Positions 44,672 through 49,497 of a stretch of DNA of 64,000 bases are shown here, piece by piece. Origin of the DNA: Flavobacteriales bacterium (GTDB taxonomy: Bacteria; Bacteroidota; Bacteroidia; Flavobacteriales_F; PHOS-HE28); assembly GCA_019638115.1 (NCBI GenBank), contig JAHBUK010000002.1, positions 193,867-257,866 on the forward strand. The letters are read 5' to 3'. The notes beneath the pieces are model-generated. The model was not told the origin of the DNA. It made no database searches and saw nothing but the letters and a program-made list of their open reading frames with translations. Made by a program: the position numbers and the translations under genes. The stretch's first letter is position 1, and each line of letters opens with the position of its first letter.

Positions 44672-44789
44672 GCGAAGGGAAGGGGATGGGCCCCACTGGG
44701 GCGCGAAGATGCGAAGCGTGCGTCAGAGCAAGCCGTGGAGAGCCGAAGACCTTGAATGGACAGGGCCTTGCGCTCCTTTGGCACAGCCC

Positions 44790-44819
44790 TTGCCTGCCCC
44801 GGCCCAACAGCTAACTTCG
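44790..44819 (+). promoter_or_regulatory. Promoter of the DUF4476 gene set
   Basis: TTG (44790-44792) and TAACTTCG (44812-44819) are separated by exactly 19 nt; TAnnTTCG is a common variant of the -7 box. It lies 18 nt before ATG 44838 and could drive the whole 44.8-49.4 kb set. Confidence 0.75.
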
Positions 44820-44837
44820 CAAACCCAAATTTCAGCC

Positions 44838-45917
44838 ATGAAAGCCTTCTCCACCCTCGTTCTTGCTTCGGCCCTGCTGTTCCCGGCATGGGCATCCGCT
44901 CAAACCGCAGATCTGGTGTTCTTCACCGATGATGGCGCCAAATTCACCCTGGTGGTGGATGGCGAAGTGAAGAACGACGCTCCTGCCACCCGTGTTGTGG
45001 CAACGGGCATCCGCAACGAGACGCCCATGGTCATCATCCGTTTCGAGGATGGTGGTATTCCACAATTGCGCAAGTCGGGCTACTTCCCCTTGGGCATGGA
45101 ATATACCGTGATGGTGACCACCAACAAGAAAGGCGAACGTGTACTTCGTCCCACCGGCGAAGCTGCCTTGGGCACCGCCGCCAAAGCGGAACCCGCCAAA
45201 CCCAAGCCCACCGAGTTCGTGGAGGATGTACCTGTGGTGGTGGTGCCTGCGACCACTACGGTGATCACGCCCGCCAGTACCACGGGTGTTACTCAGACCA
45301 CCACGGTTGGTGGTGTTGATCAAGTGACCACCGTCGTTGTTGTGGAAGAAGAAGGATTCGCCAGCCCCAATGGTGGTGAGAACGTGAACATCAGCATGGG
45401 AGTGAACGGTGTGGGCTTCAACATGAACGTGAAAGTGGACGATGGTGGCATGAACATGAACACGGGCACCACCGGTACCACCAGCACCTCACGCACCACC
45501 ACGCGCACCACCACTACCACCACCACAACGGCAACGCCTGTTCCCGTGCCCACCACGCCTGCACCTACTCCTGTGAAGGAGCCCGAAGTGTACCGTATGC
45601 CCGGATACAGTGGCCCCATCGGCTGCGGCATGCCCATGAGCAGCACCGAATTCAACGATGCCAAGAAGAGCGTGGAGAGCAAGAGCTTCGAGGACACCCG
45701 CATGACCATGGCCAAGCAGATCGCCCGTGATCGTTGCTTCAGTGCGGACCAAGTGAAGAACATGCTCGGTGCCTTCAGCTTCGAGGACACCCGTCTGGAG
45801 TTCGCCAAGTTCGCCTACGACCGCACGCACGACATTGGCAACTACTACAAGGTGAACGATGCCTTCACCTTCGAGAGCTCGATCGAAGAGCTCACCAAGT
45901 ACATCGGTTCACGCTGA
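44838..45917 (+). CDS. Exported DUF4476 protein
   Basis: A 359-aa protein. Signal peptide MKAFSTLVLASALLFPAWASAQ; residues 22-110 form a beta-rich domain (FFTDDGAKFTLVVDGEV). Residues 115-250 are a low-complexity Thr/Val-rich spacer that includes a run of threonines and a TP-rich linker. Residues 262-359 are the helical DUF4476 domain (SSTEFNDAKKSVESKSFED, then RDRCFSADQVKNMLGAFSFED), a Bacteroidota-restricted family of unknown function. The protein probably sits in the periplasm or at the cell surface with a flexible tether between its two domains. It starts the gene set leading to the CsgG-like and LPP20 lipoproteins. Confidence 0.85.
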   Translation: MKAFSTLVLASALLFPAWASAQTADLVFFTDDGAKFTLVVDGEVKNDAPATRVVATGIRNETPMVIIRFEDGGIPQLRKSGYFPLGMEYTVMVTTNKKGERVLRPTGEAALGTAAKAEPAKPKPTEFVEDVPVVVVPATTTVITPASTTGVTQTTTVGGVDQVTTVVVVEEEGFASPNGGENVNISMGVNGVGFNMNVKVDDGGMNMNTGTTGTTSTSRTTTRTTTTTTTTATPVPVPTTPAPTPVKEPEVYRMPGYSGPIGCGMPMSSTEFNDAKKSVESKSFEDTRMTMAKQIARDRCFSADQVKNMLGAFSFEDTRLEFAKFAYDRTHDIGNYYKVNDAFTFESSIEELTKYIGSR

Positions 45918-45961
45918 TCGTACGGATCTAAAGCTCACTCTCCCTACATCCACAGACCGTC

Positions 45962-47341
45962 ATGCCTACCCTCGGATCCCGCATAGCCTTGTTGGCCTTC
46001 GCCACGCTGCTGCAGGCATGCACCGGTTCCAAGCCGCTTTCCAAGAAGGCTACGAAGCTGGATGCCGTAGGGATGTATGCGGAGGCGGCGGAGATGTACC
46101 TGCAGTCCGCCTTGCGGAACAATGGGAACATAGATGCCAAGATCGGTCTGAAGAAGACCGGGCAGATGGTGCTGGACGATAAGCTTGGTGGCTTCTTCCG
46201 TGCAGTGGCCATGGGTGGTGACAAGAGTCTTGCGGTATCTTCTTACCAGGAAGCCATCGCCTACCAGGAGCGCGTAAGACGTGTGGGTGTTCAGTTGGAA
46301 GTGCCCGATCACTACGCCAAGGATTACGACCGGGTGAAAGGAGAACTCCTGGTGGAATTGTATGAGGAGGGCCAGGATCTCCTTGATCGCGATGATCACC
46401 GTGCCGCCGAGCAGGTGTTCGCCAAGATCGTGAAGCTGGAACCCGGCTACCGCGATGCCAGCAGCTTGCAGGCCGTGGCATACCTGGAGCCCTTGTACCG
46501 CAACGGGAAAGCGGACCTCGAAGCTGGCCGGTACCGGAAAGCATACACCGAGTTCGATCAGATCCTTCGCAAGGACCCCAGCTACAGGGATGCCAGTGCG
46601 TTGCGCCAGCAGGCCATCACCAAAGGGCAGTTCTCCATTGCGGTGTTGCCTTTCACCAGCACCAGTAGGGCCAGTGGTATGGTCACCAAAGTGCAGGCTT
46701 ATTCCATGACCGCGCTCACACAAACGAAAGACCCTTTCCTGCGCATCGTGGACCGCGAGAACATGGATCGGATCCTGGAAGAGCAGCGGCTGAGCCTGAG
46801 CGGGGTGGTGGATGAGCAGACCGCGGTGCGCGTGGGTAACTTGATGGGAGCACATGCCGTGCTGATGGGCAACCTCATCGAGTATCGCGAGGAGCCCGGC
46901 CAGTTGCGCCGCAGCACCAAGGACGGTTATGAGAGCTACCGCGTTCAACTGGTGAACAAGGAGACCGGTGAGAAGTACTTCGAGACACGCTACAAAGCGG
47001 TCCGATACAACGAGTTCTACCAGGAGAACAAGGTGTACATGTCCTTCTCTTACCGCTTGGTCTCTTTGGAGACCGGAGAAGTGCTGGTGAGCAAGGTGGT
47101 GGACCGGGAAGTGGCCGACCATATGTATTACGCTGCCTACGAGGGCAACCGCGATGCCCTGTTCCCTGCACGCAACGGGGTGGTGGACCTCGCTGGCAAC
47201 GCACGCCGCGATCTGGTGTCGTTGCTCAATGCACCCCGCCAGATGAAGTCCGTTGCGGATCTCAGCAACCAGTTGGTGCAAACGGCAAGTTCCACCATGG
47301 CATCCTCCATCCAGGCAGAACTCAATTCGCGCTTGCCATGA
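45962..47341 (+). CDS. TPR lipoprotein with CsgG-like domain
   Basis: A 459-aa lipoprotein: the lipobox is LLQAC with Cys at residue 20. Residues 30-210 contain TPR-like helix pairs (AVGMYAEAAEMYLQSALR, then LEAGRYRKAYTEFDQIL). Residues 215-400 match the CsgG/FlgO-type fold (FSIAVLPFTSTSRASGMVT, then RENMDRILEEQRLSLSGVV, then GNLMGAHAVLMGNLIEY). CsgG forms the outer-membrane curli channel; relatives FlgO/FlgT are structural. No curli subunit genes (csgA/B) are seen. The stop overlaps the next start by 4 nt (ATGA), so translation is coupled to the LPP20-like gene. Confidence 0.87.
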   Translation: MPTLGSRIALLAFATLLQACTGSKPLSKKATKLDAVGMYAEAAEMYLQSALRNNGNIDAKIGLKKTGQMVLDDKLGGFFRAVAMGGDKSLAVSSYQEAIAYQERVRRVGVQLEVPDHYAKDYDRVKGELLVELYEEGQDLLDRDDHRAAEQVFAKIVKLEPGYRDASSLQAVAYLEPLYRNGKADLEAGRYRKAYTEFDQILRKDPSYRDASALRQQAITKGQFSIAVLPFTSTSRASGMVTKVQAYSMTALTQTKDPFLRIVDRENMDRILEEQRLSLSGVVDEQTAVRVGNLMGAHAVLMGNLIEYREEPGQLRRSTKDGYESYRVQLVNKETGEKYFETRYKAVRYNEFYQENKVYMSFSYRLVSLETGEVLVSKVVDREVADHMYYAAYEGNRDALFPARNGVVDLAGNARRDLVSLLNAPRQMKSVADLSNQLVQTASSTMASSIQAELNSRLP

Positions 47342-48723
47342 TCCGTCCGCTGGCCATAGCGCTACTCTTGCTGGTAGCGGGTTGCAAAGGCAACAAAGCG
47401 GTGGTGGATGCCAATACACCTTCCGGGCAAGACCTCCGTCCTGAGTGGGTGCGCTCCCGGCCGAGCAGTTCCATGTACTACGTTGGTATCGGTCTGGCCA
47501 ACAAGGCCAGGCCGGAATTCCAGGAAACGGCGAAGAAGAACGCCCTGAATGACCTGGCCAGTGAGATCAGCGTGGTGGTGGAAGGCAACAGCCTGCTCTA
47601 CACCCTCGATCAACGCTCGCGCTTCAACGAGTCCTTCACCAGCACCATCAACACTCGCACCAGTGAACAATTGGAGGGCTTCGAGCTGATGGGGACCTGG
47701 GAGAACGGCACGGAGTATTGGACCTACTACCGCTTGTCCAAATCCGAGCATGCCCGCATCAAAGCGGAGCGCAAGGCCAGGGCCATGGGCAATGCGAAAG
47801 ACCTGCTCATGCGTTCCCGCGAAAGCTTGGCGAACGGAGACCTGCGCGGTGCTTTCGATCAGGACATGCGCGGCCTACTGGCCATACGCGACTATTGGGG
47901 AGAGAACGACCTCGTGGAACTCGACGGTCGTCAGGTTCCTTTGGCCAACGAACTCTTCAGTGATCTGCAGCGCCTCACGAGCGGTATCCGCTTCAGCATC
48001 CTGCCCGAGCGTTGCGAACTGACCTATGCGGACAGGTACCGTCGCGAACTGCTCATCAGTGCCAAGCACGGCACCAATGGGAACCTGCGGGATCTTGCCC
48101 AGTTGCCCGTGGTCATCACCTGGCCGGGAAACAGTGGGCGGGTGACCGAGATGAAGAGCACCGATGGGGCAGGGCATGTACGCACCACGGTGCAGCAGGT
48201 GGATGCGAATGGAAGCCCACGGGAGCTGGTCGTGCGTTTGGACATGGATGCGCTGATCGCCAAGGAGCACGATGCCACCTTCGTCCGAGCCTTGACCTCA
48301 AGCCTTACCGTTCCTGAGAAACGGGCTACGATCGACATCACCATGCCGCGCGTGTTCATGCGAGCACAGGAGACCAACCTCGGGCAGCCCGTCGGCGACG
48401 CCGGTGTATCCATGGTGATCCGGGAAGAGCTCACCAAGAGGGGATTCCGCTTCGTGGAGCGCGAGGCCGATGGCGACATGCTGCTCACCCTTACCGGTAC
48501 CACCCGCCAAGGCGGTGAATCCGGCGGTTTCTTCACCACCTTCCTCGACCTGAACTTCAGCTTCCGCGATCGTCGCAGTGGCGACGTGATCCACGAGGGG
48601 GGAAGCCAGGGTGTGAAAGGCATCCAACTGGACCACCAACGTGCTGGGATCGATGCCTACAAAAGGGCCGCCCAGGATGTGCGACGCGATCTTGTGCCCG
48701 CCATGATGAAAGCCATTATGTAG
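47338..48723 (+). CDS. LPP20-family lipoprotein, long form
   Basis: A 461-aa lipoprotein with lipobox LLVAGC (Cys at residue 16). Residues 35-150 read as an LPP20 domain (RPEWVRSRPSSSMYYVGIGL, then KKNALNDLASEISVVVEGNS). The middle (200-290) is beta-rich, and the last 120 residues (VSMVIREELTKRGFRFVERE, then LTLTGTTRQGGESGG) resemble the CsgG/LptE-like tail found in related surface lipoproteins. LPP20 is a Helicobacter surface antigen, and the FlgP protein of flagellar outer rings is in the same family. Start overlaps the CsgG-like gene. Confidence 0.82.
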   Translation: MIRPLAIALLLLVAGCKGNKAVVDANTPSGQDLRPEWVRSRPSSSMYYVGIGLANKARPEFQETAKKNALNDLASEISVVVEGNSLLYTLDQRSRFNESFTSTINTRTSEQLEGFELMGTWENGTEYWTYYRLSKSEHARIKAERKARAMGNAKDLLMRSRESLANGDLRGAFDQDMRGLLAIRDYWGENDLVELDGRQVPLANELFSDLQRLTSGIRFSILPERCELTYADRYRRELLISAKHGTNGNLRDLAQLPVVITWPGNSGRVTEMKSTDGAGHVRTTVQQVDANGSPRELVVRLDMDALIAKEHDATFVRALTSSLTVPEKRATIDITMPRVFMRAQETNLGQPVGDAGVSMVIREELTKRGFRFVEREADGDMLLTLTGTTRQGGESGGFFTTFLDLNFSFRDRRSGDVIHEGGSQGVKGIQLDHQRAGIDAYKRAAQDVRRDLVPAMMKAIM

Positions 48724-48800
48724 CATTGGCGAGCATTTGCGAAGTTTGGCACGCAATTGGAAACACCTTCAACAGAGACACCATCAAAGTCCGATCGACC

Positions 48801-49400
48801 ATGAAAACCATGACCACCAACCGTACCATGACGGTCCTCCTTACGGCGCTGATGCTGTCCGGGGCCATGACCGCCTGCAAGAGCAAGAAGAATGTTGCTG
48901 AAGTGCCGAAGAACCCCGACGGAGAGGTCGATGTGATCATTCCCTGCTCCGGCCCCGAGTTCTTCACCAACGACAAGGTGTTCCGCGCTAACAGCTTGGG
49001 TGAGAGCATGGACCAGGCCACTGCCAAGAAGAAGGCCATGAGCAACGCCCGCGCCGACCTGGCCGCCGCCATCAACACGCAGGTGAAGGCCGTGATCGAC
49101 AACTACGTGAACAGCCGTGAGATGAACAACCGGGAGGAGGTTGGTGAGCGTTACGAGAGCCTTGCCCGCGAAGTGGTCGACCAACGTCTGAGCGGCACCC
49201 GCACCATCTGCGAGCAGGTGAAGCGCGTTACCAGCAGCGGCAACTACAAGGCCTATGTGGCCATCGAGCTCAGCGCACAGGACCTGCTCAGCGCCTACAA
49301 CCAGCGCCTCAGCAGTGACGAGCGCCTGCGCATCGACTACGACTACGAGAAGTTCAAGGAGACCTTCGACAAGGAGATGGAGAAAATGGGCAACCGTTGA
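48801..49400 (+). CDS. LPP20-like lipoprotein, short form
   Basis: A 199-aa lipoprotein from ATG 48801; two nearby downstream ATGs are also possible. The hydrophobic leader VLLTALMLSGAMTAC carries the lipobox with Cys at residue 26. The mature part (CSGPEFFTNDKVFRANSLGE, then KKKAMSNARADLAAAINTQV) resembles the LPP20 fold: DQAT..K..A...AR..LA..I is the characteristic helix. It follows the long LPP20-like gene after 77 nt and is closed by a strong terminator, so it is the last member of the set. Function unknown. Confidence 0.82.
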   Translation: MKTMTTNRTMTVLLTALMLSGAMTACKSKKNVAEVPKNPDGEVDVIIPCSGPEFFTNDKVFRANSLGESMDQATAKKKAMSNARADLAAAINTQVKAVIDNYVNSREMNNREEVGERYESLAREVVDQRLSGTRTICEQVKRVTSSGNYKAYVAIELSAQDLLSAYNQRLSSDERLRIDYDYEKFKETFDKEMEKMGNR

Positions 49401-49427
49401 CCCCTCAGCCCCAAGGAACACGGAAGG

Positions 49428-49461
49428 ACCCCGGCCACACAGGTCGGGGTTCTTCTTTTTT
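49428..49461 (+). terminator. Terminator closing the CsgG/LPP20 set
   Basis: ACCCCGGCC (49428-49436) pairs with GGTCGGGGT (49442-49450) with one wobble, followed by a T-rich tract to 49461. Confidence 0.88.
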
Positions 49462-49497
49462 ACCCACTAAGCGGGGCACGATACGGACATTTGCACC

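Follow-up and report, generated by a model that had tools for sequence, protein, structure and literature searches.

Lipoproteins of the FlgP/FlgT/LPP20 and CsgG types have been described mainly in flagella, curli and exopolysaccharide export. Among the closest described systems are the H-ring of the Vibrio flagellar motor, formed by FlgT, FlgO and FlgP (PDB 3w1e, 8z5n), the H. pylori proteins HP1454 and Lpp20 (HP1456; PDB 4kzs, 5ok8), the curli channel CsgG, PelC, and LpoB. According to a part of PMC6504787, Vibrio FlgT, FlgO and FlgP are sigma54-dependent class III, and flgP of Campylobacter is listed as sigma54-dependent in an excerpt of PMC4626219. We found a four-gene set with related domains in DNA of a Flavobacteriales bacterium (contig JAHBUK010000002.1, positions 193,867 to 257,866; this 64,000-nucleotide stretch is called the window below). 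The set is a conserved gene unit, and we tentatively propose, at somewhat less than an even chance, that it encodes a sigma54-controlled, periplasm-facing, oligomeric outer-membrane scaffold that would serve a partner machine. A literature search gave no paper pairing CsgG with LPP20 and no title bearing on LPP20 in Bacteroidetes.

A prior interpretation made from the DNA letters (the sequence-only reading) had named four genes in a given order, and all of them were found in place:

44838..45917, plus strand: gene 1, secreted protein with a Thr-rich linker and a C-terminal DUF4476 domain (residues 267-356; Pfam)
45962..47341, plus strand: gene 2, lipoprotein (C20) with a helical TPR head and a C-terminal CsgG/PelC/FlgT-M-type domain (residues 223-459; Pfam, model)
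47338..48723, plus strand: gene 3, lipoprotein (C16) with LPP20 (33-147), Ig-like (215-335) and CsgG/PelC-type (336-461) domains (Pfam, model)
48801..49400, plus strand: gene 4, short lipoprotein (C26) with a divergent LPP20 domain (profiles)
49422..49462, plus strand: intrinsic terminator, 15 pairs followed by a T run (terminator scan)

The DUF4476 domain of gene 1 gave a strong Pfam match (E 2.9e-21, 76 bits; cut-off 22.5). The ATGA overlap noted for the CsgG-like and long LPP20 genes is exact (47338-47341). This 4-base overlap is retained in 9/18 gene 2-gene 3 pairs, the window counted, and two of these are in other families; the remaining pairs (9/18) are separated by short gaps. The lipobox cysteines were invariant in alignments of each lipoprotein (C20 in 18/18, C16 in 19/19 and C26 in 17/17 sequences). 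The hairpin with its T run, at 49422-49456, agrees with the single terminator expected at the end of the set; terminator-like sites in the examined stretch overall were no more frequent than in shuffles.

We found that the four genes are a conserved unit. In 16/16 distinct genus genomes whose wider context was read, the window among them, all four occur in the same order (L005 and L054 are one contig, counted once; L006 begins within gene 1). By translation, the flanking genes in the window encode a methyltransferase, a saccharopine dehydrogenase-like protein, DUF423 and pckA, and each was present in just 6/15 of the other genus genomes. Because the order was kept while the surroundings changed, we treat the set as a unit. 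Wherever gene 3 occurs in the genus (34 genomes, our own included), gene 2 lies next to it. Gene 3 was absent from 1/35, a genome that is 76% complete, and gene 2 or gene 3 was cut at a contig end in some draft genomes. These counts, with recurrence in other families, bear out the expectation that the genes are conserved together. The order kept amid changing flanks also argues against the alternative that the genes encode a loose group of co-expressed lipoproteins, for envelope stress or housekeeping, that form no single complex.

The set is conserved yet patchy across Bacteroidota, with gene 3 as its hub. We sampled 247 genomes of the phylum with a completeness of 90% or more. The gene 3 profile matched 14/247, the gene 4 profile 6/247 and the gene 2 profile 53/247, the last mostly through the CsgG or TPR part; Pfam LPP20 was found in 32/247 and Pfam CsgG in 79/247. 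Nine genomes had a gene 3 match below 1e-60 (one of these, in G187, spans positions 23-337 only), with a gene 4-like gene within ~3 kb in seven and a gene 2-like gene in three. Outside the genus, the full set was found in family f29 (L062). The gene 2-3 pair occurs in families f5 (L038) and f11 (L037), the gene 3-4 pair in f10 and f14 (L040, L041, L063, L064), and a small CsgG gene paired with gene 3 in f44 (L067). In f10 a gene 2 relative sits on a separate contig (L039). Family f40 has the gene 2-3-4 trio (L069), in which a WD40 propeller replaces the TPR head, fused N-terminally to the CsgG domain (L069:6201-7850) at the position equivalent to the window's gene 2. The complete set, seen only in the genus and f29, is thus no general trait of Bacteroidota, and the co-occurrence expected across the phylum held only in part.

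Patchiness (14/247), partial sets that differ between families and a promoter element belonging to gene 4 itself (below) are what loose, co-expressed lipoproteins would be expected to leave. In addition to the order kept in the genus, genes 3 and 4 are neighbours in f1, f10, f14, f29, f40 and f51, which counts against that explanation, and we consider it rather unlikely.

The CsgG-like identity assigned to gene 2 was confirmed. Its Pfam matches were CsgG (43.7 bits; cut-off 20.8), spanning profile positions 6-156 of 210, LpoB (29.9 bits; cut-off 22.3) and TPR_2 (29.4 bits; cut-off 27). We predicted structures of genes 2 and 3 as single-chain models. The gene 2 model had a mean predicted local distance difference test score (pLDDT) of 87.7, and its top Foldseek match was CsgG (E 8.5e-6). 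Residues 222-459 matched DUF330 (Z 14.7), FlgT (Z 14.6, root-mean-square deviation [rmsd] 2.8, 145 aligned), PelC (Z 14.4), the LPHT ring (Z 14.4) and CsgG (4q79_H; Z 13.4, rmsd 6.5, 170 aligned), Z scores within 1 of each other being ties. PelC, which is dodecameric by its PDB entry titles, thus shares the core fold; it differs in that gene 2 has a TPR head and no Pel exopolysaccharide gene lies within the set.

The match to CsgG brings up an export channel, in which a gene 2 pore would secrete the DUF4476 protein or another substrate. The Pfam match, the CsgG fold over 170 residues and a first gene encoding a secreted Thr-rich partner are consistent with such a channel. One feature of gene 2 bears directly on it:

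46886..47026, plus strand: gene 2 residues 309-355, long polar segment at the position of the first CsgG membrane hairpin (model, hydropathy)

This segment is ~30 residues longer than its counterpart in CsgG. Both of its strand faces were mostly polar (family average), whereas true Bacteroidota CsgG controls had lipid-facing windows at TM1 in 2/3, by a crude measure. The two amphipathic membrane hairpins of CsgG were not recognisable in gene 2 by this measure, which detects TM1 in just 2/3 true CsgG proteins. FlgT, PelC and the DUF330 protein also score equal to or above CsgG. As had been remarked, there are no curli subunits among the four genes; csgA, csgB, csgE and csgF were likewise absent by translation from the immediate flanks, the genome as a whole not being searched for them. 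Since a long polar segment takes the place of the first membrane hairpin, gene 2 is unlikely to be a curli-type channel, and curli export as the leading reading was rejected on the unrecognisable hairpins and the lack of a curli gene in the set. These results lean against the channel proposed for the set, and we judge export by gene 2 highly improbable.

Gene 2 also resembles LpoB in its Pfam match and fold (LpoB C-terminal domain, Z 11.1). It might span the periplasm and, in partnership with the LPP20 proteins, tune an enzyme acting on peptidoglycan (a synthase or hydrolase). The neighbours YcfL and LpoB of E. coli may work together in this way. LPP20 genes lie beside a gene for an MltC-type transglycosylase in one f51 genome (L065) and beside an M48 peptidase gene with SH3 in f51 and f40, as this explanation would have it. 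However, gene 2 fell far under the cut-off of the NCBIfam LpoB equivalog (27 bits versus 110.55), it bears a TPR head, and no peptidoglycan gene was seen in the set or the immediate flanks in the window. We regard an LpoB-like role as doubtful.

Gene 3 is predicted to combine an LPP20 domain, an Ig-like domain and a CsgG/PelC-type domain, the second of that type in the set; their order is that of Vibrio FlgT. Its Pfam LPP20 match was above the cut-off (54.4 bits versus 25.9), and 19/19 aligned members matched at E<=0.1; four of the 19 also match Big_1 and seven match DUF4136. The model (mean pLDDT 82) matched Lpp20 (5ok8; Z 10.5), CsgG and PelC (both Z 10.2). Foldseek aligned it across domains with FlgT (E 3.8e-4 over 469 columns) and HP1454 (E 8e-4 over 409 columns). 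Residues 46-461 superposed on FlgT (3w1e, 1-263) with Z 9.6 and an rmsd of 24.8 over 185; because of this rmsd, only the domains agree between the two proteins, not their arrangement. The folds anticipated for genes 2 and 3, related to CsgG, LPP20 and FlgT, thus appeared in the models, and the CsgG/PelC-type domain of gene 3 had been overlooked. The models predict a C-terminal fold common to genes 2 and 3; this is a purely structural prediction, because profile-profile comparison of the two did not find it (probability 12.8).

The LPP20 domain of gene 3 contains an insert:

47569..47682, plus strand: gene 3 residues 78-115, insert between the LPP20 helix and the second strand (alignment, model)

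These 38 residues have low model confidence, yet V79, S85, L87 and F96 are invariant. In the FlgP family, ring formation correlates with an insert between helix and second strand, according to an excerpt of PMC12222027. By analogy, the insert in gene 3 is suggestive of ring formation, as a hint only.

HP1454 was the best match of the gene 3 sequence profile in the PDB (4kzs), a weak one (E 0.016). The H. pylori pair, encoded in one operon, is alike in that a protein of several domains, the first of them Lpp20-like, is accompanied by a small Lpp20 protein (PMC11756786). It differs in that sequence similarity is weak. We know of no CsgG-TPR gene or DUF4476 in that operon.

For gene 4 we suggest a lipoprotein distantly related to LPP20. 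Of the two LPP20-like lipoproteins originally proposed, gene 3 passed the Pfam cut-off by itself; gene 4 alone scored 20.0 bits, under the cut-off of 25.9, yet 15 of its 17 aligned members matched LPP20 at E<=0.1 (best 5e-5). Profile-profile comparison of gene 4 with gene 3 gave a probability of 88.7, and the gene 4 profile had no match among PDB sequences.

The three lipoproteins are probably on the periplasmic face of the outer membrane. Surface lipoproteins of Bacteroidota bear an acidic export signal after the cysteine. We infer periplasmic placement because in all three, unlike this signal, basic or neutral residues follow the lipid cysteine (CTGSK in gene 2, CKGNK in gene 3 and CKSKK in gene 4).

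We found two conserved sigma54-type elements, one before gene 1 and one before gene 4, and a third conserved motif in the gene 1 leader:

44777..44794, plus strand: sigma54-type -24/-12 element TTTGGCACAGCCCTTGCC before gene 1 (genus conservation)
44812..44820, plus strand: TAnnTTCGC in the gene 1 leader (kept in 15 leaders)
48745..48762, plus strand: sigma54-type element TTTGGCACGCAATTGGAA before gene 4, with a perfect -24 box and a weak -12 box (genus conservation)

A single promoter upstream of the set had been proposed; a sigma70 scan found none on the set's strand, and the two elements replace that picture. The gene 1 element, TGGCA[CT]-N5-TTG with canonical spacing, lies 57-65 bases upstream in 15/15 genomes of the genus; 14/15 have C at -12. 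Before gene 4, TTTGGCAC was 50-87 bases upstream in 16/16 genomes, with G at -13 in 16/16 and C at -12 in 2/16, so that the sigma54 consensus TGGCAC-N5-TTGC is partly matched. These counts are not all independent, because some genus genomes are near-identical.

The elements were rare elsewhere. Within the 64 kb window, TGGCAC-N5-TTGC has a single exact occurrence, the gene 1 site. There were two TTTGGCAC-N3..5-TTG sites in the window (0.07 expected) and none in another 400 kb from this genome (464 kb examined in all). A looser search allowing one mismatch gave no enrichment (9 versus 5.9 expected). In f29, f10 and each of the three f14 loci, a matrix built on the gene 1 sites detected an element upstream of the set's leading gene (0-2/1000 shuffles each); the element was weaker in f11 (7/1000) and f5 (25/1000). 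The matrix detected none ahead of the f40, f44, f49 and f51 genes, which lie outside the class, or of two paralogues tested, including the short-LPP20 paralogue in the window's genome. rpoN is present in the genome; a strict pattern for the sigma54 activator motif gave no match in loci L037-L094 or the window. Taken from the sequence, these results suggest that the set uses sigma54.

We also considered a Bacteroidota vegetative promoter for both starts. TAnnTTCG was present in 15/15 gene 1 leaders, with TTG 18-22 bases upstream in 9/15. This candidate was rejected because gene 4 has no such box in 16 genomes. The TAnnTTCGC of the gene 1 leader may be a second promoter box, resembling the Bacteroidota -7, or a translation signal.

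The arrangement parallels the Vibrio H-ring. Gene 3 has the LPP20-type then CsgG/TolB-N-type order in one chain, gene 2 has a CsgG-type domain, gene 4 is a separate LPP20 lipoprotein gene, and sigma54-type promoters are common to both (by an excerpt of PMC6504787 for Vibrio and by sequence elements here). In contrast to the H-ring, our set, known from genes and single-chain models, has an extra Ig-like domain, a TPR head and a DUF4476 partner. That the two share both domain types and sigma54 control is striking, although it could be due to chance.

Several observations weigh against the scaffold we propose. None of the four proteins matched the Pfam FlgO or FlgT models at E<=1 (a paralogue elsewhere, L043, matched FlgO at 0.0089, below cut-off). 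The CsgG/PelC/TolB-N/LptE fold is common to many proteins not known as ring formers, and the alignment of gene 3 to FlgT has the large rmsd given above. The -12 box of gene 4 reads GA rather than GC in most genomes. Finally, in the f14 genomes genes 3 and 4 occur with no full-length gene 2, which is therefore not required in every case. The organism had been expected to lack such a flagellum, and flgI, the one flagellar gene searched, was not found in its genome (given as 100% complete). Because of this absence and the lack of FlgO or FlgT matches, we say that the set may work like an H-ring and do not identify it as one.

The scaffold we favour could operate as follows. The three lipoproteins and the secreted DUF4476 partner would be made together from the sigma54-type promoters, and the lipoproteins would probably be anchored on the periplasmic face of the outer membrane. 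There, the CsgG/PelC/FlgT-M-type domains of genes 2 and 3 and the LPP20 domains of genes 3 and 4 would most likely assemble into a scaffold, either a homo- or a hetero-oligomer, that is plausibly ring-shaped as in Vibrio. The TPR head of gene 2 may recruit the partner, and the scaffold would function without a CsgG-type pore.

Neighbouring genes were considered as a guide to the partner machine. In other Bacteroidota classes (L065, L066, L069), long or short LPP20 genes lie beside genes for a CHASE2-guanylate cyclase and the M48 peptidase with SH3; at L065 a gene for a PrsW protease is also near, with that for the transglycosylase. The peptidase and cyclase recur in f51 and f40 and were rejected as candidates, since the window's set has nothing similar beside it. 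No informative neighbour was found around the paralogues (L042, L070, L072, L073). At L042 (G000:C3:621023), in the window's genome, a TPR/LpoB-like gene 2 paralogue lies near recX and an RNase E/G gene. A distant second paralogue of the short LPP20 lipoprotein is present at G000:C2:677799-678329 (L070) and in four other genomes, and was kept in 5/5 same-class genomes of the phylum sample that have gene 4. DUF4476 turned up in the literature search in an animal context.

We consider it unlikely that some flagellum-less Bacteroidota carry a sigma54-controlled outer-membrane ring made from the two flagellar H-ring domain types. If this were true, an H-ring toolkit with sigma54 control would exist apart from flagella and serve another envelope-spanning machine, and flagellar H-rings may be a recruitment of that toolkit. 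The set is conserved and has regulation of its own in a lineage where no flagellar P-ring gene was detected, which makes it a clean place to ask what ring-prone domains do without a flagellum. It bears on whether motor rings derive from an older outer-membrane scaffold, and the sigma54-type elements render the question directly testable.

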